Shown here: piece by piece, positions 3,438 to 22,943 of the stretch
Layout of the letters: each line of letters begins with the position of its first letter
Numbering within the stretch: the first letter of the stretch is position 1
Virus record (IMG/VR): IMGVR_UViG_3300017779_000067
Coordinates: 1-32,728 of that record
Length of the DNA stretch: 32,728 bases
Direction: 5' to 3' (one strand)
From: a virus
Program-made: the position numbers and the translations under genes
Notes under the pieces: generated by a model
Told to the model about the DNA's origin: nothing
The model's input: only the letters and a program-made list of their open reading frames with translations
Database searches by the model: none

Positions 3438-4298
3438 TTAAGCCTCCCTACAGACAACATCTACAATACCGTCAGTATCGATTGCGATACTTCCCATAGA
3501 TAACTTGGCTGTCACCAAGAAAGATGTTTTTTCTGCTATATAATTAATTTCAGTTGAAGCAGGCATCCCTACTGCAACCCCTAGTGCGGATTGATGAAAC
3601 GCAAAACAAGTACGATCACTAGAACCATCAATAGATAATCCACCCTCATCCCTGTCACCAAGAATGTGGAATTGGAAACCCATCATGCTTCCGATCTGAC
3701 CGCTTATCAAATTTTGTATATTCTGATAATCGGCACTAATTGCTCTTTCATCACCAAGTAGTCCAGCCAAGTTGTTCGCATGAATAATCATGTGACGATT
3801 TTGGGCTGGTACATTCTTAGCATCCATAGCTTTCTTCGCTGCAATGATCTTACCCATGTTAAGGTCAGATGCTGCTGCACTACCAGTTGTAACAATAGTG
3901 TTAGCCACTGTGCTACCAGCTGATGCAGCTGCCAACGCATCCAAGATGATTTGATCTTGTCTACGTCCGATAGCTGAACCAACAACCTGTGCAAGTTCTC
4001 TTCGCTCATCAAAGTTGATCTTGTTTTGAAGAAAGATATCGCTGTATTCTGATGCGGAAAAATCCGTAAGAGAACAAGCGACACTTGAAAAACTAGTGTT
4101 TAGAGGAACCACGTCAGTTCCTGGAGTTCGAACACTAGCTTGTCCTTTCCCTACCTTGGGAAAGTTAACCGTAGAACCGACAACGCCAGTTCTGGTTCGT
4201 GCTGCGCCAGTTAATACCGCTGATCCTTGGTACGCTTGATGTACCTCTGCTTCGAACAGCTGAGTAAACGCTGGCGACAAGTTTGCTCTTGTTGTCAT
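3438..4298 (-). CDS. Major capsid protein
   Basis: The product (286 aa) is the likely shell subunit, with an HK97-type fold expected. Visible landmarks are FEAEVHQAYQGSAVLTGAAR (residues 15-34), NFPKVGKGQASVRTPGTDVV, the LTDFSASEYSDIF stretch and AIGRRQDQIILDALAAA, all typical of the non-cleaved podovirus/siphovirus capsid family often annotated Phage_capsid_2. It directly follows the scaffold gene and precedes the decoration gene. A strong AGGAGG is present upstream of the ATG. Unlike its neighbours it is preceded by 177 bases without a gene, which hold a likely promoter (4446-4474) and a structured leader (4341-4440), suggesting independent high expression. Confidence 0.88.
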   Translation of the reverse strand: MTTRANLSPAFTQLFEAEVHQAYQGSAVLTGAARTRTGVVGSTVNFPKVGKGQASVRTPGTDVVPLNTSFSSVACSLTDFSASEYSDIFLQNKINFDERRELAQVVGSAIGRRQDQIILDALAAASAGSTVANTIVTTGSAAASDLNMGKIIAAKKAMDAKNVPAQNRHMIIHANNLAGLLGDERAISADYQNIQNLISGQIGSMMGFQFHILGDRDEGGLSIDGSSDRTCFAFHQSALGVAVGMPASTEINYIAEKTSFLVTAKLSMGSIAIDTDGIVDVVCREA

Positions 4299-4340
4299 AA
4301 TATGCCTCCTAGCATAAAAGTTACGTTTACATTACTCGCA

Positions 4341-4440
4341 ACAGTTATCCAGAAAGTCTGGGCTGTAACCTACGGCATACGCTGCCGCAACGACTGATTT
4401 CTCAGCTGCCAGAACGGCTGTGGTTACAGTTATCGTTCAC
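4341..4440 (-). ncRNA. Structured leader RNA of the capsid transcript (candidate)
   Basis: This lies between scaffold and capsid genes, in the predicted 5' leader of the capsid mRNA. On the minus strand four helices can form. P1 is CTGTAACC/GGTTACAG (4422-4429 with 4363-4370), perfect over 8 bp and closing the domain. Inside it is P2, GCTGA-GAAA-TCAGT (4393-4406), with a GAAA tetraloop. P3 is CGGCA-GCGTA-TGCCG (4373-4387). Just 3' of P1 is P4, CCAGA-CTT-TCTGG (4349-4361). P1-P3 would make a three-way junction. ACAGTTATC is also repeated directly at 4341 and 4426 on the plus strand. No known riboswitch is recognised. It could control capsid translation, mRNA stability or processing. The structure is read by eye and has not been computed. 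Confidence 0.5.
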
Positions 4441-4445
4441 AATAA

Positions 4446-4474
4446 GTTATACCTTACAAGACCCATCTTGTAAA
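4446..4474 (-). promoter_or_regulatory. Putative sigma70 promoter for the capsid gene, overlapping an inverted repeat
   Basis: On the minus strand TTTACA (4474-4469) and TATAAC (4451-4446) are separated by 17 bp; each hexamer matches the sigma70 consensus at five of six bases. Transcription would start near 4439, giving a leader of about 140 nt before the capsid ATG. The spacer is itself an inverted repeat (CCTTACAAGA CCCA TCTTGTAAAG on plus, 4452-4475, one mismatch), placed immediately after the scaffold stop. It could be an operator or a hairpin at the end of the upstream message. Confidence 0.55.
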
Positions 4475-7893: not shown

Positions 7894-8382
7894 TTAAAAC
7901 ACCCTCGACATCATATAATAATCATCTCCTTGAGGTCCGTACTTTCGTAGCACGCCCTCATTTTCAAAGTAACATACTTTTGCCCACTTGTAAGCAGGGA
8001 TATTTCGTGAACAAACAGTGATTTGTAACCGTTTCATTTCTAGTTTGTTCGCAGCGTACTCAAAAAACAGTTTAGATGCACGATGCATTCTAAATGATTT
8101 ACGACTAATATCATTGCTTGGTATTAACCAGGCTTCGTAAACGCCATCCCATAATTTCCATATTCCAAACATTGCATATATTTTATCCTGCATTGCAGTG
8201 AAGCTGTAACCTTTTGTAACAAAATTTGTCAGGTACTTAGAATAGTCATCGAATAGTTCACGATTTTTCAAATCAAACTCATTGAGTTCAATCATATTCA
8301 AATGCATAGGATGCCAATCAACAATTCTTTGTTCAGGCCAGTTGAGGCGCATCTCTTGTGTTAGTTCTTCAGGAGAAAACAT
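7894..8382 (-). CDS. GNAT-fold protein, T7 gp13-like
   Basis: The product (162 aa) looks like the phage family (DUF2833) that includes T7 gp13, a GNAT-related fold needed for virion assembly rather than for a known acetylation. The central region IYAMFGIWKLWDGVYEAWLI corresponds to the Gly/Trp strand pair of the family. It is followed by helix residues (FRMHRASKLFFEYAANKLEM) and the late strand QITVCSRNIPAYKWAKVCYF with FENEG and a Tyr-rich end. The start overlaps the terminase stop by 14 bases. Whether it binds acetyl-CoA cannot be seen. Confidence 0.65.
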   Translation of the reverse strand: MFSPEELTQEMRLNWPEQRIVDWHPMHLNMIELNEFDLKNRELFDDYSKYLTNFVTKGYSFTAMQDKIYAMFGIWKLWDGVYEAWLIPSNDISRKSFRMHRASKLFFEYAANKLEMKRLQITVCSRNIPAYKWAKVCYFENEGVLRKYGPQGDDYYMMSRVF

Positions 8383-9898
8383 CGAAATCCAATACCTTTA
8401 TAGTTTGTTGCATTTTTGCAACACCTCCTTTTTTAGTAACCATATCTCTATGCTCTCCTCCTCCAAGCAAGCAATATCCAGCTGCATCACCAACGTGCGA
8501 GTGTTCATTCTTGTTTGGTGTAGATCTGTATCGTTCTTGACCTGAACCCATACTAACTCTTTTGAAGTGATACCCTCCAGCAAGTGATTTACGCAACCTC
8601 TCGCATTTCTTGTTTAATAAAAATCCTGGCTTACCTTCAATCAATCTCTGCATGGGGATAGCAAGAGCCTCACGTCTAATTTTAAAATCGTTTGTTGCAC
8701 ATGGCTTCGCATAAATATCTAATGTCCTCATGTGATCGAAAGCAGTTGTTTCATAAATCTGATCACGCTGTTGTCCAGCTGGGTCACCCCAAACCATAAA
8801 CTGTGCCTTGGGAAAATAAATTCCCATTTCTTCTTTGAGCATTGAAACAAATCTATTTAGACCCATGTCAAACGTAACTAGTTCATGCAAGACGTGCCAT
8901 ACTCCGTTAGACATTCTTTGTGCAAAAATTGCTGCTGGTGTTAATCCAAAGTCAATACCTACTTGTACAGGAACGCCTGGTTCAAATTCTAAATCCTTAG
9001 ACATAGTTGTATCGTCATATTCAGGCCAGATAGGCATTCCTTCTTGGACATAAGTGTAATCTCCTTTTGCATAACACTTAATCCAATCTAATTGCTTACC
9101 ACCTAATAATTGCTCGTAGTATCCTGTCGGCAAATTTTTTAGGTTTTCTGCTTTAGCGTTTGTTCGCCACCATTTACCAGCTGCTTGCAAAAATCCATTT
9201 GCTTCTGGCATATCTTCAGGAACATCATCGTTATCTACTTCGATAACACCAGGAGGCTGCTTAAAAAATTCCCAGGCATATTTACCTGTAGGTCTATCTT
9301 TGCCTTCAGCTAAATGAAAATACCAATGATCCGTATCCATAGGGTTTGTGTCGAGTATTACACCATGCCAGCTTGGTCCTCCATCATTCTTAGTTGGGTA
9401 TCTACCCACTCTATGCGTTAGACCGTCTATAACGGCTTTAGGTAACTCTCTGCATTCATTGACCCATGCACCTGTAAGTTCTAATGAAAGCAGCTTACGC
9501 ACGTCCTTTGGGTCATCTAGGGCTAAGAAAATGACCTCGCAGTCTATTCCAGCAGCTTTGCCTTTAGATGGCAGTTTTATATGATGAGTTATTGGAGGAG
9601 CATACTTAACATGGCCCCAGATATGTTCAGGCATTAACTCAAGCCAGGTCTTAAGAGTAGTCGTTCTAAGCATCGGATGCGTATTTCTTACTATCGCAAA
9701 TCTTGAATACTTGATACCATCTCTTGGAGAGGGCTTCTGTTGTACGGCTCTGCGCCATAGTTCAGCGCAGCAGGCATAGGACTTGCCGCTCCCTACTGGT
9801 CCTAGAAGTCCTCTCACGAAACCTTTTGATTGCATAAACTTTGCAACGGTGGGGCTTGTACTAAAATCTAATTTAGTTACAGATCTTCCCTCTGTCAT
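8369..9898 (-). CDS. Terminase large subunit
   Basis: This 509-aa protein is the packaging ATPase and headful/cohesive-end nuclease. Walker A is GPVGSGKS (residues 33-40). The Walker B region is LTGAWVNE, with acidic E148. The RNase H-like nuclease domain has VGIDFGLTPA (about 313-322), GDPAGQQRD (about 371-379) and a late HVGDAAGY with the third acidic residue. ATG 9898 has GGAG upstream and overlaps the stop of a 40-aa membrane peptide (ATGA). A TTG six bases further upstream is less likely. In contrast to T7, the terminase genes precede the portal. Confidence 0.93.
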   Translation of the reverse strand: MTEGRSVTKLDFSTSPTVAKFMQSKGFVRGLLGPVGSGKSYACCAELWRRAVQQKPSPRDGIKYSRFAIVRNTHPMLRTTTLKTWLELMPEHIWGHVKYAPPITHHIKLPSKGKAAGIDCEVIFLALDDPKDVRKLLSLELTGAWVNECRELPKAVIDGLTHRVGRYPTKNDGGPSWHGVILDTNPMDTDHWYFHLAEGKDRPTGKYAWEFFKQPPGVIEVDNDDVPEDMPEANGFLQAAGKWWRTNAKAENLKNLPTGYYEQLLGGKQLDWIKCYAKGDYTYVQEGMPIWPEYDDTTMSKDLEFEPGVPVQVGIDFGLTPAAIFAQRMSNGVWHVLHELVTFDMGLNRFVSMLKEEMGIYFPKAQFMVWGDPAGQQRDQIYETTAFDHMRTLDIYAKPCATNDFKIRREALAIPMQRLIEGKPGFLLNKKCERLRKSLAGGYHFKRVSMGSGQERYRSTPNKNEHSHVGDAAGYCLLGGGEHRDMVTKKGGVAKMQQTIKVLDFDVFS

Positions 9899-10017
9899 AT
9901 GCAAACTCCAAATTTAATATATTCCAATATCTCCACTACTAATAATCCAGCTAATAGAAATACTATTACTGTATGATACGCATTCCATAAAAGATATTCA
10001 TATTTATTTTTCTTCAT
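9895..10017 (-). CDS. 40-aa single-span membrane peptide between terminase genes
   Basis: The frame starts at ATG 10017, inside the 3' end of the small terminase gene (14-base overlap), and ends in the ATGA that starts the large terminase. The product begins MKKNKYEYLLWNAYHTVIVF and continues LLAGLLVVEILEYIKFGVCI: a charged start and one clear transmembrane segment. The exact overlap with both neighbours favours a real, coupled gene. Its function is unknown; it may merely couple translation of the two terminase genes. Confidence 0.5.
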   Translation of the reverse strand: MKKNKYEYLLWNAYHTVIVFLLAGLLVVEILEYIKFGVCI

Positions 10018-10919: not shown

Positions 10920-11136
10920 AGCTTGCTCCTTTCTTTTTTTTGTAAACCCCAAAATATTTTGAGGGAACCCCCCTAACGATACGGTAGGTGGCACCCCCCA
11001 GAGGGTCCATTTTCTGACCCAATTCGTTACTCACCCTGCATCCTGGGCCTTTAAATGCAGTGTTTTTGTTATACCCCCCCATGCTATTCTGGGAGGCTGT
11101 ACAAAACCTAATGGTTCCTTTGGGATTTGTAATCAC
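10906..11136 (-). CDS. Possible small gene through G-run region
   Basis: A frame from GTG 11136, which overlaps the rep TGA, runs 76 codons to 10906 and overlaps the next start by 14 bases, the overlap length seen at several other junctions here. The product has a Gly/Lys-rich composition (IRFCTASQNSMGGYNKNTAF; VRGVPSKYFGVYKKKKGASY) with no recognised motif. The region contains runs of six or seven G on the coding strand (11074-11080, 10994-10999, 10968-10973), unlike the rest of this AT-rich genome. It could instead be a non-coding site. Evidence for coding is weak. Confidence 0.4.
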   Translation of the reverse strand: MITNPKGTIRFCTASQNSMGGYNKNTAFKGPGCRVSNELGQKMDPLGGATYRIVRGVPSKYFGVYKKKKGASYESR

Positions 11137-12098
11137 TTAGGTAACCTCATCTTGCTAGTCATGTGCTTGAGTATATCCTTTACATCCTTACCACTCTTAG
11201 CTTGCTGCTGTGATACCTTCCTGGACATGAAGTATTGCAATGAGTAAGGCGGTTGTTGGTTCTTCTCTCTCTTCCAGGTTACAACACCCCTGGCATCTTC
11301 TATGAATGATAGGATTGTATAGCCTGACTGTAGTAGTTCCTTTGCTATAGCCATCTGTCTTAGGTCATAACTCCAAGGCTTGCCATAGATGTCTTGTAGT
11401 ATCTGCCCATAGTTGTTGCACAGTTTCCTACAATCTATTTCTTTAATTTCCCCTATAGTATTTATACTAGTTAATTTAGTAGAGTTATTTACTAGGTCCA
11501 CCTTGTTATCTAGTACAACCCCAGGCTTGTTATCTGTATCAATACCATTACCCTTACTAGGTACAGCTTGTACAATGTCAGGCTTGTATTGAGTATCTTT
11601 ATCCACAGCTTTAATACTCTTACGTCTTGAGCCTGTCCTTGCCACATTGAGAGTATGCTTGGCAATCTCTGCCTCTATCTCAGGATCTCTATCTTGTGCA
11701 GGCTGTCCAGATATACAATCATCTAATGTCTTTGTAGGATCATATATCACACGCCACAGCGCACCACGCTTGCCGTAGTTCCTTCTTATGTCAGCGTTCC
11801 TTAACTTCTCTATGTAACCGTATTCTATTAGCTTACGCATATGCTGTGACACTGCCTGCTGGCTACACTCCAGGACCTTGGCAATGTATAGCTGGTTAGG
11901 AAAGAATACACCTGTCCAGCTGTTAGCATGACTGCAACAAATAGCGAATGCTCTAAACGTCATTGGATACTGATTGAACCTGTTATCACCATATGCTCTG
12001 GCTGGCATAATCATATGCGGACCAGGACACTGGAAGGAACCGCCAGACTTAGCTGGTGGATCTCTAACTGGATCTGGTGTTAGCTTAGTCTTTCTCAC
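11133..12098 (-). CDS. Replication initiator with winged-helix N-domain (Rep/O-like)
   Basis: The product (321 aa, GTG start) has an N-terminal winged helix: MTFRAFAICCSHANSWTGVF, then NQLYIAKVLECSQQAVSQHM (recognition helix near residues 78-90) and LIEYGYIEKLRNADIRRNYG as the wing. The middle is low-complexity, and an Ile/Lys-rich C-domain follows (LQDIYGKPWSYDLRQMAIAK). This arrangement is that of plasmid Rep and lambda O-like initiators that bind iterons and load host replication proteins. The low-complexity middle is encoded by AT-rich repeated DNA with a perfect DnaA box, as in lambda, where the origin lies inside O. It overlaps the DUF1064 gene by 14 bases. Confidence 0.72.
   Translation of the reverse strand: MRKTKLTPDPVRDPPAKSGGSFQCPGPHMIMPARAYGDNRFNQYPMTFRAFAICCSHANSWTGVFFPNQLYIAKVLECSQQAVSQHMRKLIEYGYIEKLRNADIRRNYGKRGALWRVIYDPTKTLDDCISGQPAQDRDPEIEAEIAKHTLNVARTGSRRKSIKAVDKDTQYKPDIVQAVPSKGNGIDTDNKPGVVLDNKVDLVNNSTKLTSINTIGEIKEIDCRKLCNNYGQILQDIYGKPWSYDLRQMAIAKELLQSGYTILSFIEDARGVVTWKREKNQQPPYSLQYFMSRKVSQQQAKSGKDVKDILKHMTSKMRLPK
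11450..11610. other. Candidate origin of replication inside the rep gene
   Basis: A perfect DnaA-box match, TTATCCACA, lies at 11599-11607. Next to it is an AT-rich tract (about 11430-11500). The hexamer TACTAG occurs at 11465, 11490 and 11555 and inverted (CTAGTA) at 11510. Related CTTGTTATCT elements occur near 11502 and 11526. Repeats plus an AT-rich segment and a DnaA site within an initiator gene are what is expected of a theta-type origin. I have not measured GC skew or compared relatives. Confidence 0.5.
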
Positions 12099-12501
12099 CC
12101 TTCACGCCTTCCTGGAGAGGTAGGTTTGCTATCTCTTTCTTCAGGTCCTTGGAAGGTATGACGATTATCTTGATACCACGATGTAACGCTAACACTAGTT
12201 TCATTTTCAAATTGTAAACGTCTGTCTTGTATCCTTTGACTTCTATCACAACCTCGCAGCCTTGCTGCCCATGTTGTCCTTCTTCTTGCCTGTCGATATA
12301 GCTGAAGTCTGCAATGTAGTCGCATATCTTCTGCCCCCCTATCTCGCATTTAATTCTTGGTTGAAATACCAAGTGTGTTATCTCACCAGCTTCTACCCTG
12401 GGCTTTAACTTAAACCAGTAGTAAGCTGCCTCTGCTTTACTCATAAACTTGATACCGTCTAGCTGGTATCTTTTATTTCCAAACTTGCTGGGCCTACGCA
12501 C
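12085..12501 (-). CDS. DUF1064-family PD-(D/E)XK nuclease
   Basis: The likely start is GTG 12501, with GAGG six bases upstream, at the RHH stop; it gives 138 aa that begin MRRPSKFGNKRYQLDGIKFM. An in-frame ATG at 12549 would overlap the RHH gene by 56 bases and adds residues not typical of the family. Motifs are DGIKFMSKAEAAYYWFKLK, AGEITHLVFQPRIK, the YIADFSYI strand with its Asp, and VVIEVKGYKT giving the E-x-K pair. This is the DUF1064 pattern, a phage endonuclease fold thought to act on branched or recombination DNA. Its place between regulator and initiator fits a role in replication or recombination. Confidence 0.75.
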   Translation of the reverse strand: MRRPSKFGNKRYQLDGIKFMSKAEAAYYWFKLKPRVEAGEITHLVFQPRIKCEIGGQKICDYIADFSYIDRQEEGQHGQQGCEVVIEVKGYKTDVYNLKMKLVLALHRGIKIIVIPSKDLKKEIANLPLQEGVKGEKD

Positions 12502-12670
12502 CGCTAGCCTCACAGCCTTCACGCAGTATGATCTCAACCATGGATGCAAGACTGCGTCTTTCTAACCTGGCCTTATTCTCAACCAGCTGCTTAACATCAG
12601 GGCTAATCTTCACATACATAGGCACCAGGACTACCTGTATTTCTTCAGGCTTTTCCTGTTTCTTTTCCAA
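12494..12670 (-). CDS. Ribbon-helix-helix (Arc/CopG-like) DNA-binding regulator
   Basis: The gene starts at TTG 12670, with AGGAGG at 12677-12682 and a six-base spacer. The 58-aa product reads MEKKQEKPEEIQVVLVPMYV, then KISPDVKQLVENKARLERRS and LASMVEIILREGC. It is a short strand (IQVVLVPMYVKI) followed by helix A (SPDVKQLVENKARLE) and helix B (SLASMVEIILREG), the ribbon-helix-helix fold of Arc, MetJ and CopG. The gene begins a divergent pair with the plus-strand early genes across a palindromic promoter region. Autorepression and control of the early block and of rep are therefore likely but inferred. Confidence 0.75.
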   Translation of the reverse strand: MEKKQEKPEEIQVVLVPMYVKISPDVKQLVENKARLERRSLASMVEIILREGCEASGA

Positions 12671-12707
12671 TGTTTACCTCCTATTAAAATAATATTTCGT
12701 AGATAGC

Positions 12708-12735
12708 TTGACAATATACCAGGAATGATTATATT
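12708..12735 (+). promoter_or_regulatory. Early plus-strand promoter
   Basis: TTGACA (12708-12713) is a perfect -35. TATATT (12730-12735) is a five-of-six -10, with a 16-bp spacer. It would drive the genes from 12782 rightward; the leader of about 40 nt holds an AAGGAGG SD at 12770-12776. It overlaps the opposing minus-strand promoter almost completely. Confidence 0.7.
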
Positions 12736-12740
12736 AACAA
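12713..12740 (-). promoter_or_regulatory. Opposing promoter for the RHH-nuclease-rep operon
   Basis: On the minus strand TTGTTA (12740-12735) is separated by 16 bp from TATATT (12718-12713). The -10 and spacer are identical in kind to the plus promoter. The RHH start lies about 40 bases downstream. Its -35 overlaps the plus -10 and vice versa, so the two polymerases should exclude each other. Confidence 0.6.
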
Positions 12741-13641: not shown

Positions 13642-14334
13642 ATGCATAAAGTTATCGTTTCAATATTAAGAGTATCGACTAAGGAACAGTCAGTCGATAA
13701 CCAACAACACCAAATCAACCAGGCATATCCTGGTGTAGAAGTTCACTGGTTTATAGAAGAAGGTGTATCAGGTAAGACACCTAACGCTGAACGTCCAGAG
13801 TTCTTGAAGGCTACTAAGTTAGCTAAGAAGTTAGGTGTTCCAATCGTAGCTGCTAACCTGTCCAGGTTTGGACGTGACCTAGCAGAGATCTCTACTTGGT
13901 ATCGTGACAATGTAATGTCAGGCCAGGTGCAGATGATTGCATTGGACCAGCCAAACTTAGAACCTGAAACAGCTGGTATACATTTCACTATACAACAGAT
14001 GGAACGTATCAAGATTAGTCAGCGTACTAAGGCAGCGCATGACAGGCAGAAAGCAGAGATAGAAGAGCAGGGTTACTTTGTATCAAGAGCAGGCAAGAAA
14101 GTTTATAGCCTGGGTAATCCTAACCAGGCTGCATCTGATGCAGGCAATGCCACTATCAAATCAAGAGCAGATAAGTTTGCAAACAAAATCCTACCAGTAA
14201 TCAAAGACCAGCTGGGCCAGGGTAAAACTATGAAAGATGTTGCAGCTTATCTTAACGATGAAGGATACCAGACTGCAAGAGGTGGTGATTGGTATGCTTC
14301 AACAGTCAGCAATGCATTAAGGAGGGCAGCATGA
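13642..14334 (+). CDS. Serine recombinase (resolvase/invertase type)
   Basis: The product has 230 aa. The N-terminal catalytic domain has LRVSTKEQ with nucleophile Ser12 and Arg10. LSRFGRD follows (Arg75, Arg78), then MERIKISQRT (Glu121, Arg122, Ser126, Arg128). A long helix leads to a C-terminal DNA-binding part, MKDVAAYLNDEGYQTARGGD with WYASTVSNALRR, resembling the Recombinase-domain helix (LNxxGxxTxxGxxWxxxTVxxxLxR). Size is like resolvases, not large integrases. It may resolve multimers, invert DNA or integrate. It has its own promoter. No attachment site could be identified. Confidence 0.88.
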   Translation: MHKVIVSILRVSTKEQSVDNQQHQINQAYPGVEVHWFIEEGVSGKTPNAERPEFLKATKLAKKLGVPIVAANLSRFGRDLAEISTWYRDNVMSGQVQMIALDQPNLEPETAGIHFTIQQMERIKISQRTKAAHDRQKAEIEEQGYFVSRAGKKVYSLGNPNQAASDAGNATIKSRADKFANKILPVIKDQLGQGKTMKDVAAYLNDEGYQTARGGDWYASTVSNALRRAA

Positions 14335-14510
14335 TTGAGTTAATTAGAGATTGGACAGCCAGGGATTGGTTGTCTTTTGTTGGTCAGCTGGTAGCAGCTA
14401 TGGCCTTTGTTGTATTTATCTGGGCAGCAATCTGGATTGGTTGTGCGCTAAATGATAAATGCTATTGCGATAACACAATGGGAGATCCGATATGCCAGAC
14501 GTTAAAGTAA
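14331..14510 (+). CDS. Small single-span membrane protein, Cys-rich tail
   Basis: ATG 14331 overlaps the recombinase TGA and has AAGGAGG upstream. The 59-aa product has a short amphipathic start (MIELIRDWTARDWLSFVGQL), one transmembrane segment (VAAMAFVVFIWAAIWIGCAL) and a tail with four Cys residues counting C38 (CALNDKCYC..PICQ). Its role is unknown. Position among recombination genes and before Exo may reflect an inner-membrane early function such as superinfection control. This is a guess. Confidence 0.65.
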   Translation: MIELIRDWTARDWLSFVGQLVAAMAFVVFIWAAIWIGCALNDKCYCDNTMGDPICQTLK

Positions 14511-15439
14511 CAGGTAAGAAAACAATAACAGGAGAAGAGTTAGGTGCATCAGAAATGCCAGCTGTTCTTCTACATAAAGATGCCTACGGTAACACTAGGC
14601 AAGAGAAACTAGACGAACACAAGAAGGCAGCAGCTGGTGTTGAAGTTGTAGAAAAAAAATTCTTCAACAAGAATGCACTGCTGCGAGGTACATATCTTGA
14701 ACACGCCATTGTTCCTTGGTGGTTAGAAACTCTAAAGGAAGATGGTATTAACTGTACAGCTGAAGAACCAACCAAAGCATTTAGAATTAAGGAAGCGCAG
14801 CTAGGTGCCACGCTTGATCGTATCCTTACTGTACCTAAAGGCTATGACCTGGTGACCAATGGCCTAGAGTTAAAAGGCAAAGGTGCATTAGAAGTTAAAA
14901 CAGATTTCTACCACCAGGGTAAATGCAAACCTGATTGGATGATACAGGTACACCAGCAAATGATGTGTGCTGATTTACCATGGGCTGTCATTCTAGTTAT
15001 GACACAGCAAGGCAAGCTAGTTACCTATGCATATAAGAGGGATGATAAACTTTGTAATCAAATCCTTGATGCAGCTAAAGAGTTTTGGAAACTACTTAAA
15101 GAAGATGGTGACTACCCTGTAGCTGTTGAACCAAAAGAGCAAGGCCTTAAAACTGTAACCGTAGATGCAAAGGCTGGGGATAACCTGGACCTGGAAGTTG
15201 TAGCCACTGACCTAATGAAAGCTAAAGCAGAAGCTAAGTCATGGGGCAAGGTAGCAAAAGATAACCAGGAGATCTTAGAGTTACATATGGATAGCATTGA
15301 TGCTGACGTTATGAATGTTGGTAGCTATCAAATCAAATCAGTTACAACACAGAAACCTAAGAGAACGATGGTGGATGTACCTGGTCAATTTATAGAAAGC
15401 GCATCGTTCTCAATCAAGGAGGTCAGTGATGACAAATAA
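14492..15439 (+). CDS. YqaJ/lambda-Exo type recombination exonuclease
   Basis: The product (315 aa) is a 5'-3' dsDNA exonuclease that feeds single strands to the RecT protein encoded next. Motifs of the PD-(D/E)XK fold are RGTYLEHAI (RGxxxE, Glu70), LGATLDRIL (Asp109), GALEVKT (Glu134, Lys136) and MIQVHQQMM (Gln152 and Gln155). The length is larger than lambda Exo (226 aa), because of N- and C-terminal extensions. It overlaps the end of the membrane gene by 19 bases and the RecT gene by 11, so the pair is coupled. Confidence 0.83.
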   Translation: MPDVKVTGKKTITGEELGASEMPAVLLHKDAYGNTRQEKLDEHKKAAAGVEVVEKKFFNKNALLRGTYLEHAIVPWWLETLKEDGINCTAEEPTKAFRIKEAQLGATLDRILTVPKGYDLVTNGLELKGKGALEVKTDFYHQGKCKPDWMIQVHQQMMCADLPWAVILVMTQQGKLVTYAYKRDDKLCNQILDAAKEFWKLLKEDGDYPVAVEPKEQGLKTVTVDAKAGDNLDLEVVATDLMKAKAEAKSWGKVAKDNQEILELHMDSIDADVMNVGSYQIKSVTTQKPKRTMVDVPGQFIESASFSIKEVSDDK

Positions 15440-16457
15440 GAATGTTATCCAGCGACAGATGCTGGAACCAACCAACCTCAAAGAGGCAAAAGAATTTGCA
15501 GAAACTTTATCTAAGTCTGGATTAGTTCCTAAAGAATTTCAAGCCAAGCCAGCTAACATATTAGTAGCTGTTCAATGGGGATATGAGATAGGCCTTGCAC
15601 CAATGCAGGCCCTGCAAAACATTGCAGTTATAAATGGCAGGCCATCGCTCTGGGGTGATAGCTTACTTGCCCTGGTCAAAGGCCATAAGAATTTTGCTGG
15701 GTGCAGGGAATGGATGGAAGGCAACATAGCTTTCTGTGAAATAAAAAGAACCCTGAACAATGGTGAGATAGAAGCTACGCTGCAACAGTTTAGTGAAGGT
15801 GATGCACAGAAGGCAGGCCTGTTAAATAAGCAGGGGCCTTGGAGGCAGTATCCAAAACGTATGATGCAGCTTAGAGCAAGAGGCTTTGCTATTCGTGATG
15901 CATTCCCTGACGCTATCAAAGGATTGATCACAGCAGAGGAAGCTATGGATTATCCAGCACCTAAAGATATAACCCCAGGAGAGGGCGTACAATCCATGCC
16001 TAGCGTTTCCAATGCACAATCTACCACGCAGCTAACAGATGCCCTTGAGCAGGCCTCTAAAGCAGAGGAACAGGCACACAAGGATGCGGTTATAGATAAT
16101 ATAGCTGACCATGCAGAACCTGGTGAGGACGAAACAGAAACCCCAGACCTGGACGATGAAGGTATGCCTTTGCATATACCTAACGGCACTGAGCAGCCAA
16201 AGGTAGAGCGTTACAATGTCGAGCAAGATTGGGCAGACAGATACCATGAGTTAATGTTAGCCATGTATCGATCAACCCACAAAGATCTGAACCCATCTAT
16301 TAAAAGAACAAAGCTAAAAGAGTTTAAGGAATTAAACAAAGATGTTCTGGAAAGTATGGATGATCAGCAGCTGGCTAAAGAGTTAGAAACTAAAAGGCTT
16401 GAATGGAACAAGAGCCTAAGTATCATGGCAAGGGAGAACCCAGATGGAACAGAGTAA
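15429..16457 (+). CDS. RecT-family single-strand annealing protein
   Basis: ATG 15429 is six bases from AGGAGG (15417-15422), so the GTG three bases upstream is not preferred. The 342-aa product has the RecT core: KPANILVAVQWGYEIGLAPM with QALQNIAVINGRPSLWGDSL (residues about 42-80), then KGHKNFAGCREW and YPKRMMQLRARGFAIRDAFP. The acidic, variable C-terminus (about residues 180-270) is typical. It anneals complementary strands and works with the Exo. The Exo-RecT pair supports recombination-dependent replication or repair. Confidence 0.88.
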   Translation: MTNKNVIQRQMLEPTNLKEAKEFAETLSKSGLVPKEFQAKPANILVAVQWGYEIGLAPMQALQNIAVINGRPSLWGDSLLALVKGHKNFAGCREWMEGNIAFCEIKRTLNNGEIEATLQQFSEGDAQKAGLLNKQGPWRQYPKRMMQLRARGFAIRDAFPDAIKGLITAEEAMDYPAPKDITPGEGVQSMPSVSNAQSTTQLTDALEQASKAEEQAHKDAVIDNIADHAEPGEDETETPDLDDEGMPLHIPNGTEQPKVERYNVEQDWADRYHELMLAMYRSTHKDLNPSIKRTKLKEFKELNKDVLESMDDQQLAKELETKRLEWNKSLSIMARENPDGTE

Positions 16458-16695
16458 ACAACGAATAGGTTTAACACCTAGACAACAACAGGTCCTGGCA
16501 TTCTTAGTTGCTTATCAAAAAAATTCTGGAGTGTATCCAACAGTAAGAGAGATATGCAAAGGTAGGATAGATGGCAAGCAGGCTATGCCTAAGATGGCAG
16601 CGCAATCTAATGTTCATAGAATATTAAACTGCCTAGCCAGGAAAGGTTATATCCTTAAAGAGATTAATAGTCCAAGAGGTATAGCAGTTATATAA
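16444..16695 (+). CDS. LexA-like winged-helix DNA-binding protein without peptidase domain
   Basis: The product (83 aa) resembles the N-domain of LexA. The helix GLTPRQQQVLAFLVAYQKNS is followed by GVYPTVREICKGRIDGKQAM and, after an insertion, NVHRILNCLARKGYILKEIN with SPRGIAV: the recognition helix and wing. LexA's autocleavage domain is absent. It overlaps RecT by 14 bases and its end overlaps the endolysin 3' end on the other strand by 8 bases. It may compete at LexA operators or regulate phage genes. Confidence 0.72.
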   Translation: MEQSKQRIGLTPRQQQVLAFLVAYQKNSGVYPTVREICKGRIDGKQAMPKMAAQSNVHRILNCLARKGYILKEINSPRGIAVI

Positions 16696-17523: not shown

Positions 17524-17699
17524 TACGCTCTCTTTATTTTATATTTCTTAACAGCTGATTGCTTTAGTGCCTTGGCTGTTGGCGAACCTTTTGCTCCAGG
17601 CTTACGCATCTTCTCACCACTACCTTCAGCTATACGCTTACGCTTGTGATGTATGTTAGCCCAGAGGCCTGGCTTCTTTGTTCCTTTTGTATGTGCCAT
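17523..17699 (-). CDS. 58-aa basic protein with LWANIH...GSGE.MRKPG motif
   Basis: ATG 17699 follows AAAGGAGGTAAGTA and overlaps the holin stop. The product contains KKPGLWANIHHKRKRIAEGS and GEKMRKPGAKGSPTAKALKQ, a pattern (LWANIHxKRxRIxxGSGExMRKPGxxGxPT) shared by small basic proteins encoded in many marine phages. Its function is unknown; strong positive charge suggests nucleic-acid binding. The TAATG junctions at both ends support the call. Confidence 0.75.
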   Translation of the reverse strand: MAHTKGTKKPGLWANIHHKRKRIAEGSGEKMRKPGAKGSPTAKALKQSAVKKYKIKRA

Positions 17700-18091
17700 T
17701 ACTTACCTCCTTTTGTATCTGTTTTCTTTGCCTTGTCAAAGCTACGCATTCCCCCAATGCCAAGCATTCCAAACATTAATGGCATCATCACACTCATGTC
17801 AGCTTGTGGTATAACAACACCAAAGCCAGCGCAGATAGGTGACACCATATAATTTATTCCCAGGGATAATCCGCAGATCCAACCAATCAATGGTCGCCAT
17901 GATGCCTGGAACCAGTTACCTTTTGCGTCAGCTTTGAGTACCTCAATCTGTGCAAGCATAGCTTCCTGTGCATGACGTTGTGACATCGTTGCAATCTCAT
18001 GGGCCAAAGCATTCTTCTGATCTTTGTCCTCAATAAATTTATCAAGCAGCCCTGTCACTGGACCAACAAGATTACCTAGTAGATTAATCAT
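17699..18091 (-). CDS. Holin, 3TM family (GTA holin-like)
   Basis: The product (130 aa) has an amphipathic N-terminal helix (MINLLGNLVGPVTGLLDKFI), a charged helical part and then FQASWRPLIGWICGLSLGIN followed by YMVSPICAGFGVV and MMPLMFGMLGIGGMRSF. WRPxxGWxxxxxxxxx is the signature of the 3TM holin family first described with gene-transfer-agent release. It likely forms the inner-membrane hole that frees the M15 endolysin three genes downstream. The start overlaps the previous stop and has a GAGG SD. Confidence 0.85.
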   Translation of the reverse strand: MINLLGNLVGPVTGLLDKFIEDKDQKNALAHEIATMSQRHAQEAMLAQIEVLKADAKGNWFQASWRPLIGWICGLSLGINYMVSPICAGFGVVIPQADMSVMMPLMFGMLGIGGMRSFDKAKKTDTKGGK

Positions 18092-20183: not shown

Positions 20184-20984
20184 CTATTTTAATATCTCAT
20201 CAATGAAACAATAGAACCCAGAATTGTGCATTCTAGTGTCATCACTTTGATTTGGATTTAAAACGCTACCAGGTTTGTTAGAAGAGCCAGTTCTTACCCT
20301 CCAACCCCATATTACATTGTGGCCTCCAGCATCTAAACTTGCTCTGTCTACTTTTTTATGACCCCAATGCATGGCTTGCTCACCATTGTCTGTGTAACCA
20401 ACACCATAAAAAGCATCTGAGTTATCACTGCCATGTGTAGTTCCAGTATCTATATCAAAGTAAACACCAGAAAAATCCGCACTACTACCATAAGACTTTG
20501 CCATCCAAGTAAGATATATACATGACGTTGCATCATCATGTACTTTTGTAAAACTGCCTGACCAAACATTTCCACTATCACTAACGCTGCTGTGTGAATA
20601 TCTAGTGTTGTTAAATATTGATGTTCTTTTTACAAAAGTTTGAGATACCGTAGCAAAATCAAATCCGTTTCCAGCTAAATTTGTACGCAGAAATTGTCCA
20701 GCACTGCCAAGAGATGTGCCTTGTAAATTACCAGAGGCATCGGATGTAACAACCTTATTATTACCAACAGCCAAGGCTACGCCTTTAGCTAAGAATTTCC
20801 AATAACTACCATTCTCCGTTCCAGAAGAAGATGGTGCCTGGTTTTGTGAAGCAGCCACTGCAATGTAAGTTGATACAACACCACTGTCAGTGTACTGCAC
20901 AAAGTCATCGATTGCATATGTAGTGCCTGATGCCCATACGCCTTTATTTACTAGCTTGATACGTCCAAGATTAATAGTTGCCAT
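20184..20984 (-). CDS. Receptor-binding/tail adhesin with shared N-terminal module
   Basis: The product (266 aa) has an N-terminal module (MATINLGRIKLVNKGVWASG, TTYAIDDFVQYTDSGVVSTY, then WKFLAKGVALAVGNNKVVTS) that is clearly paralogous to the start of the 422-aa adhesin at 21675-22943. G.W..GTTYxxxDxV resembles carbohydrate-binding module 5/12-type domains. The C-terminal half is different (about residues 115-266, VSQTFVKRTSIFNNTRYSHS on), with many aromatic and Asp residues. It is a likely host-range determinant, with its start coupled to the 109-aa gene (TAATG). Confidence 0.75.
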   Translation of the reverse strand: MATINLGRIKLVNKGVWASGTTYAIDDFVQYTDSGVVSTYIAVAASQNQAPSSSGTENGSYWKFLAKGVALAVGNNKVVTSDASGNLQGTSLGSAGQFLRTNLAGNGFDFATVSQTFVKRTSIFNNTRYSHSSVSDSGNVWSGSFTKVHDDATSCIYLTWMAKSYGSSADFSGVYFDIDTGTTHGSDNSDAFYGVGYTDNGEQAMHWGHKKVDRASLDAGGHNVIWGWRVRTGSSNKPGSVLNPNQSDDTRMHNSGFYCFIDEILK

Positions 20985-21674: not shown

Positions 21675-22943
21675 CTATAACTTTCTTATCTTGACGTAAC
21701 CCATACCTGAATTTCCACCAACCTGGTATCCGCCTGTGTTACTATTAAAGCCTCCAAGGTAACCAGAGCCTCCGCCACCAGCACCATTATCGGCTCCTCC
21801 GCCTCCGCCCCAGTAGCCTCCGCCTCCGCCACCAGCATCATTACTAGTGTAGGCGTTACCTCCTTGAGCCTGCGTTCCAGTAGAACCATGATCTGACGTA
21901 CCACCGCCAGATTGAGTTCCACCTCTTGATGTACTTGACTGTCCTTGGCCTCCTGATCCTACAGTTCCGCCCCCTTCACCGCCACCATACCAGCCAGTAT
22001 GTGAAGATCCTGATGTTGCTTCAATGTAACAGCCACCACCAGCACCAGCTACTGCCATTCTATCTGCTATAGCATCACTAAATGTTGCACCAGCAAAGTT
22101 ATTGCCATTTGCTAATCGTAGCCTTACGTCTGTAGATCCACCACCTGACCCAGCAAATTGACTAGATTGCCCACCTTTAGAACCACCGTATCCACCATAA
22201 CTAGTAGACGATGTGTTACTGTTACTAAACCTTGATGTATCGTAAGGGTTGGTTATAGGCGTTGCGCTAGATGTTGACTGTCCAATGTTACCCATTTGAC
22301 CAACACGAATATATAATTTATCACCAACAGCTAAAGTTTTTTGACCCCAAACAATTCCGCCATGACCGCCGCCACCGTTGCCGCCACCCATAGCCCCAGC
22401 TAATTCCATATAATAAGTTCCAGCTTCATACACAGTCCAAATTTGTGACCCTGCTCCATCAGTAGCTAGATTTCCAAATGATGCCCCTGATATTAAAGGC
22501 TGGTCTATATATCTAAGTGCTAGAGAATTTGCACTAGGGCCTGCTGGCCCATGCGCTCCTGCGTTATCAAAGAATAAATGTCCATCTGACAAGGCACTAA
22601 AACCAGAACCAAAACCTAGAGTATTAGTTCCTGTTACTTTTACCACTTGGTCTACTGACCCAATAGCTGTTCCTGTAAGATTACCACTTCCATCTGTTGT
22701 AACTATTTTATTATTACCTAGAGATAAAGAAACACCTCCAGCAAATTTACTCCAATGAGAAGAATTTACTGTTCCTCCAGATGATGGAGTTTGTCCAGCA
22801 GCTGGTGTTCCGTTTACATAAACGTATGAAGATAACTCACCGCTATCTGTAAATTGTACAACATCCCTTTCTTCGTATGTCGTGCCTGCTGCATAGGTTC
22901 CTTTATTTACAAAAGAAATTTTTCCTAAATCAACGGTTGCCAT
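21675..22943 (-). CDS. Glycine-rich tail adhesin (ALK/LTK-like Gly-rich domain)
   Basis: The product (422 aa) has an N-terminal attachment module (MATVDLGKISFVNKGTYAAG...) paralogous to the 266-aa adhesin. From about residue 165 there is a Gly-rich receptor-like domain: GTYYMELAGAMGGGNGGGGH, GGGSTDVRLRLA, then DRMAVAGAGGGC and long runs of Gly (DAGGGGGGYWGGGGGADNG). The order (GxY.....GA.GG....GG....STDVR....R..VAG.GGG) is the ALK/LTK-type Gly_rich pattern. In phages such poly-Gly adhesins bind receptors with variable loops between Gly strands. A candidate host-range protein. Confidence 0.8.
   Translation of the reverse strand: MATVDLGKISFVNKGTYAAGTTYEERDVVQFTDSGELSSYVYVNGTPAAGQTPSSGGTVNSSHWSKFAGGVSLSLGNNKIVTTDGSGNLTGTAIGSVDQVVKVTGTNTLGFGSGFSALSDGHLFFDNAGAHGPAGPSANSLALRYIDQPLISGASFGNLATDGAGSQIWTVYEAGTYYMELAGAMGGGNGGGGHGGIVWGQKTLAVGDKLYIRVGQMGNIGQSTSSATPITNPYDTSRFSNSNTSSTSYGGYGGSKGGQSSQFAGSGGGSTDVRLRLANGNNFAGATFSDAIADRMAVAGAGGGCYIEATSGSSHTGWYGGGEGGGTVGSGGQGQSSTSRGGTQSGGGTSDHGSTGTQAQGGNAYTSNDAGGGGGGYWGGGGGADNGAGGGGSGYLGGFNSNTGGYQVGGNSGMGYVKIRKL

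Follow-up and report, generated by a model that had tools for sequence, protein, structure and literature searches.

A putative lambda-O-type, host-dependent replication module in a marine podovirus, with the origin embedded in the initiator gene

Background

In pMV158, a small ribbon-helix-helix (RHH) gene, copG, lies ahead of the initiator gene, repB, and the two form one operon. In bacteriophage lambda, the origin of replication sits in the middle of the O gene, where palindromic iterons are bound by O dimers next to a 40-bp AT-rich region (PMC5043065), and binding of DnaA near this origin has been reported in vitro (PMC3985674). The RepA_N initiators of pSK41 and pTZ2162 and the RepA of PLE satellites act on semi-palindromic iterons through a winged-helix N-domain, which is joined to a lineage-specific C-domain (PMC7145576). 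Methylophilales phage MEP301, which was isolated through host lysis, encodes neither a DNA nor an RNA polymerase and is host-dependent; lysogeny is not discussed in the paper that describes it (PMC8024684).

In this paper we analyse a locus in an IMG/VR virus record for which an original prediction had proposed a plasmid-like replicon attached to a T7-like virion module. We describe the genes and the DNA elements of this locus, compare them across related genomes and weigh the ways in which they might be read.

Methods

The window, that is, the stretch of DNA analysed, is the whole record of 32,728 bases. The MEP301-type group is delimited by at least 40% of genes shared with MEP301. The set of rep homologues held 67 genes, 31 of them below 90% identity. 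The tree used to place changes in Rep specificity was computed without the columns for residues 81 and 85 and without the linker. GC skew was rejected as an origin locator; it tracks gene direction.

Results

The genome and its relatives

The two ends of the record split one conserved gene, whose two parts are the left-end and right-end reading frames. The corresponding fragments are 3 nt apart in two relatives, L029 and L031, and a one-base overlap between the ends of the window would reproduce this spacing. Because the ends share one gene and the spacing is matched in this way, the record is, as far as its sequence tells, very probably in effect a complete genome opened within a gene, in agreement with the original prediction. 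For the virion genes, the matches are to podovirus families of portal, capsid, tail-tube and terminase proteins:

3438-4298, minus strand: major capsid protein (PHROG_3437, E 3e-45)
8369-9904, minus strand: terminase large subunit, TerL (66% identical to MEP301)

The nearest cultured phages are MEP301 (TerL 66%, portal 55%) and Pelagibacter phage Hodr; about 17 window genes match MEP301, which has 55 ORFs, by tblastn. Neither DNA_pol_A (PF00476) nor DnaB_C (PF03796) gave a match in 17 records (the window, 14 other group records, MEP301 and Hodr), although control genomes gave matches in both searches. The absence of polymerase and helicase genes noted in the original prediction was therefore upheld, but the combination is less exceptional than had been thought, because the polymerase-free state was already reported for MEP301.

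Gene order is conserved in the group, with LexA-like, RecT, YqaJ and serine recombinase genes on one strand and RHH, DUF1064, Rep, a small conserved gene, TerS and TerL on the other, the RHH gene being undetected in some lineages. Since this order is kept across the group, the replication module is, on comparison of the sequences, a core part of a marine podovirus lineage and not a recent plasmid capture.

The initiator and its operon

The operon and its upstream region comprise the following:

12494-12670, minus strand: RHH protein of 58 aa, first gene of the operon (PHROG_3431, Arc-like repressor, E 4e-6)
12085-12549, minus strand: DUF1064 / Holliday-junction-resolvase-like nuclease (PF06356, E 7e-12; PHROG_190, Holliday junction resolvase, E 1e-27)
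11133-12098, minus strand: replication initiator Rep, 321 aa (HTH_36, E 6e-8; PHROG matches below)
12686-12735, no strand assigned: divergent promoter region, predicted by consensus scan

The overlapping three-gene operon of the original prediction (58-aa RHH protein, DUF1064 nuclease, winged-helix initiator) is present at the expected place, with profile matches for its products, and the DUF1064 ORF overlaps rep by 14 nt and the RHH ORF by 56 nt if the listed TTG start is right. The small protein had been called CopG-like; it is an RHH protein, but by PHROG profile it is Arc-like, and no profile match to the CopG family was obtained. In most of the closer relatives its gene lies directly upstream of DUF1064 and is preceded by a recurring TTGTCAA element. 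The consensus scan placed a rightward promoter-like TTGACA-16-TATATT at 12708-12735 and a leftward TTGTCA-17-TATTTT at 12714-12686, and the -35 boxes of the two overlap. The RHH protein is likely to be an auto-repressor of the operon.

Rep matches the replication-initiation, O-like and DnaD-like families of PHROG at E 1e-6 to 1e-2, among them PHROG_270 (2e-6) and the O-like PHROG_345 (1.7e-5). An AlphaFold2 model built from 49 sequences has a winged helix at about residues 30-122, a disordered linker at 156-216 and a helical C-terminal domain at 220-302; it replaced a first model from 14 sequences in which the winged helix was poor. In the fold search, which effectively tested the winged-helix part alone, the solved initiator N-domains 4pql and 4pt7 were among the matches, 4pql (Z 7.5, rmsd 3.4 over 87 residues) tying with generic winged helices. 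The model and the fold search together agree with the predicted winged-helix fold. For the C-terminal domain, no useful match was found in PDB or PHROG, and none by sequence to known loaders.

Elements of the putative origin within rep

The following elements lie within the rep gene:

11599-11607, minus strand: perfect DnaA box TGTGGATAA (rep reading direction), around rep codons 164-167
11572-11587, minus strand: iteron 1, ACAAGCCTGACATTGT
11556-11571, minus strand: iteron 2, ACAAGCTGTACCTAGT, with one mismatch (perfect in the group locus L060)
11515-11530, minus strand: iteron 3, ACAAGCCTGGGGTTGT
11491-11506, minus strand: iteron 4, ACAAGGTGGACCTAGT
11439-11498, minus strand: AT-rich stretch adjoining the iterons, about 75% AT, a candidate DNA unwinding element

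The DnaA box is the sole TTATCCACA in the record, which by itself is weak evidence, because about 0.25 would be expected by chance in 32.7 kb. The evidence becomes strong because 67 homologous rep genes were compared and 52 keep TGTGGATAA with its frame and linker position unchanged, the most distant of them at about 37% protein identity; the box is missing from the rep strand in 15 of the 67, L068 among them. The L068 rep gene, without the usual box, has two perfect DnaA boxes in the opposite orientation within its linker.

The linker iterons are palindromes of the ACAAG-N6-CTTGT type. The four in the window are spaced at 16, 41 and 24 bases and each has at least one mismatch; L060 has four perfect iterons at identical spacings (16/41/24), and across homologues the spacing between the main copies is fixed at 57 or 45, then 24. 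Palindromes of the form 5+N6+5 occur at 61 of 7,130 linker positions, some of them arising between neighbouring repeats, and at 20 of 22,110 in the rest of rep. The AT content peaks at 0.75 immediately 3' of the iterons. Both the perfect DnaA box and the AT-rich repeats foreseen in the initiator gene are in place. Over linker codons 158-217, identical synonymous-codon pairs number 1912, against 895 +/- 25 in 100 codon shuffles (maximum 960). This origin-coding segment coincides with the disordered linker of the AlphaFold2 model. The DnaA box, four phased iterons and AT-rich stretch are best read as a putative replication origin embedded in rep.

Recognition helix and iteron arms

Residues 81 and 85 of Rep pair with the iteron arms as Q81/Q85 with ACAAG, S81/Q85 with ATTAG, P81/K85 with ATAAC and Q81/K85 with ACAAC; in one clade the arms and the recognition helix both differ. 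On the tree the arm and helix types are nested, and helix and arms would have changed together about three times, step by step. The last of these changes is a reversal, with Q restored at residue 81 and C at arm position 2. Because arms and recognition helix change together, reversal included, Rep is tied to the iterons. The pattern is what direct recognition of the iterons by Rep would predict, the independent events being few.

The capsid promoter region

Two further palindromes lie near the capsid gene:

4446-4474, minus strand: promoter-like TTTACA-17-TATAAC upstream of the major capsid gene, with the palindrome in 24 distinct relatives
4277-4292, minus strand: second perfect palindrome, in the first capsid codons, in the window clade only

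A perfect Rep-type palindrome at 4456-4471 spans the -35 box and spacer of the capsid promoter-like element. Such palindromes stand 135-180 bases before the gene, within a sigma70-like TTTACA-AG-N6-CTTGT...TATA whose spacing in the window is 17 bases, and the 24 distinct capsid-upstream sequences carry them with 0-1 mismatch. Exact ACAAG-N6-CTTGT occurs 69 times in 437,699 bases, counted over 28 group loci of which some overlap, where about 0.4 copies would be expected in random sequence. These exact copies are confined to the rep linker or to the region just upstream of the capsid gene, and in one clade also to the start of the capsid gene. The capsid-upstream palindrome is missing in the clade with altered Rep specificity, and no palindromes with the new arms were found upstream of its capsid gene. 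The arrangement suggests that the palindrome is a Rep operator and that Rep may also control capsid expression. The placing of a Rep-type palindrome within a conserved capsid promoter-like element is new here; within the literature collection searched, no relevant precedent was found for control of a phage late promoter by an initiator.

The 5' leader of the capsid gene (window about 4310-4440, minus strand) appears as a structured RNA with several hairpins, including two copies of a CUG:CAG helix with a CC/GAUAA internal loop. Both sides have changed in 20 of 23 hand-drawn pairs, and covariation is 0.516, compared with 0.208 for shuffled and at most 0.19 for slid versions. The leader has no match in Rfam, and part of it is common to MEP301. 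A possible role for it is that of a translational operator controlling the capsid protein.

Recombination genes and other loci

The opposite strand carries the recombination genes:

13642-14334, plus strand: serine recombinase, 230 aa, combining a resolvase domain and the first part of a Recombinase domain (PF00239, E 3e-17; PF07508, E 6e-7)
14492-15439, plus strand: YqaJ/RecE-like exonuclease (PF09588, PHROG_434)
15426-16457, plus strand: RecT-like annealing protein (PHROG_561, E 1e-49)
16444-16695, plus strand: LexA-type winged-helix protein without a peptidase domain (PF01726, E 3e-10)

The serine recombinase is conserved and syntenic in the group; nothing convincing was found in a search for inverted repeats marking an invertible segment and for a resolvase or crossover site. 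The LexA-type protein beside RecT is a possible regulator of the recombination operon. Elsewhere, the minus-strand gene at 17699-18091 encodes a three-transmembrane holin of the kind found in gene transfer agents (PF11351, E 1.5e-17), syntenic with a MEP301 holin. The tail-region proteins at 20184-20984 and 21675-22943, both on the minus strand, have a similar N-terminal segment and match the same Hodr regions, which suggests duplicated fibre or adaptor modules.

Discussion

Our reading is that this marine podovirus replicates through a lambda-O-type, host-dependent module, in which Rep binds iterons in its own gene with help from host DnaA and the host DnaB and replisome are recruited, and we give this reading a probability of about 0.87. 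That the parts form a self-contained, host-dependent replicon, with a repressor, an initiator and an origin in cis, is strongly supported, and these parts resemble those of plasmid and lambda-dv replicons. A Rep dimer would bind the four palindromic iterons and open the adjacent AT-rich stretch, host DnaA at the conserved box would help the opening, and the Rep C-terminal domain, DnaA or both would bring in host DnaB helicase and the replisome, as the phage encodes neither. By repressing the operon promoter, the RHH protein probably sets the dose of Rep, a role played by Cro in lambda-dv and by CopG in pMV158. DUF1064, YqaJ and RecT may support recombination and the formation of concatemers for packaging.

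Rep at the capsid-promoter site may, in addition, regulate capsid transcription. More tentatively, and at somewhat less than even odds, Rep would be both initiator and regulator of the capsid gene, with the origin iterons and the single capsid operator competing for it, so that accumulating genomes titrate Rep, switch capsid synthesis and couple capsid output to genome number; its specificity would have been rewired by coordinated changes in helix and iterons, the capsid site being absent in the rewired clade.

Rep might instead be a transcription regulator only, with the palindromes serving as operators in rep and at the capsid promoter and replication taking another route, for example recombination. 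The palindrome in the capsid promoter and the presence of RecE/RecT genes fit this proposal, as does the winged helix, which resembles the MarR, CRP and LexA regulators as closely as any solved structure. We nevertheless consider it improbable, given that Rep matches O-like and initiation families, that rep holds a phased iteron array with a DnaA box and AT-rich DNA next to it, and that no other initiator candidate was seen in the genome. Far less credible is the idea that conservation of the linker reflects constraint on the protein or mRNA instead of an origin. The linker does encode protein, and its DnaA box falls at VDK/VDN residues; but this part of Rep is predicted to be disordered, its conservation sits at synonymous sites, and in the cases looked at these residues are lost where the box is lost. 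The palindrome arms, moreover, change together with the DNA-reading helix, and a further copy of the palindrome stands before the capsid gene.

The original prediction also held that a circular, self-replicating state was possible. Such a phage-plasmid would rely on the module to persist as a stable, circular episome; the RHH protein would set copy number in the manner of CopG, and the serine recombinase would resolve dimers. The self-contained replicon (iterons, DnaA box, upstream RHH gene), the resolvase-type recombinase conserved in the group and the joining of the record ends into a circular map would all suit it. The joined ends, however, are no proof of a circular plasmid, because permuted or repeated ends give the same map. 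Partition, addiction and maintenance genes were absent from the ORFs scanned, tblastn found no Rep match in 72,556 plasmids, and a search of 84,980 genomes, made with two short peptide patterns and thus of limited sensitivity, returned no true relative. For these reasons episomal life is unsupported, and MEP301, the cultured relative, was isolated by host lysis; we regard the phage-plasmid as unlikely. The database comparison proposed for Rep was likewise negative, tblastn giving no homologue in either the phage or the plasmid collections. The single weak GTDB hit, at L049, proved to be an unrelated 189-aa HTH protein whose gene immediately precedes a 733-aa packaging-like ORF, and it was rejected as a Rep relative.

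The host-dependent module would explain how a group of small marine podoviruses replicates although it encodes neither a polymerase nor a replicative helicase. The predicted origin location, at about 11.5 kb, can be checked by read coverage, and the group offers a natural series of matched changes in recognition helix and DNA site for the study of initiator specificity. The capsid-promoter site, if functional, would form a simple circuit that couples genome copying to capsid supply.

Among known systems, MEP301 shares with the window its syntenic virion and packaging genes (TerL 66%, capsid 57%), the serine recombinase and YqaJ, and has no DNA or RNA polymerase. Its apparent counterparts of the module are an RHH-like gp52, a RusA gp51 and a winged-helix-like gp55, read by eye from the sequences, with RusA taken from the record annotation. 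In contrast to this likeness in plan, gp55 is no detectable homologue of Rep, and a search of it for embedded iterons, repeats and a perfect DnaA box gave nothing convincing. The copG-repB arrangement of pMV158 is similar in placing a small RHH gene ahead of the initiator gene within a single operon, but the RHH protein of the window is Arc-like by profile, a nuclease gene stands between it and Rep, and Rep, which matched winged-helix models only and no HUH relaxase-type model, is a winged-helix initiator and not a rolling-circle enzyme. Rep is similar in plan to the RepA_N initiators and the PLE RepA, and 4pql and 4pt7 are among its fold matches; it differs in that it has no match to RepA_N (PF06970), its fold scores tie with those of unrelated winged helices, and the window comes from a marine phage with presumably Gram-negative hosts.

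In layout the locus matches lambda O and ori-lambda as carried by lambda-dv, where an N-terminal DNA-binding domain is likewise combined with an origin in mid-gene that has four palindromic iterons followed by an AT-rich region, a small upstream repressor controls the operon and the host replisome is used (PMC5043065, PMC3985674). Unlike lambda O, Rep has no match to Pfam Phage_rep_O, and no match to a P/DnaC-type helicase loader was found among the window ORFs, whereas lambda has P. The window also departs from lambda in having an RHH protein, not Cro, as repressor, a perfect and conserved DnaA box beside the iteron array, as in plasmid origins, and a Rep-type site at the capsid promoter as well.
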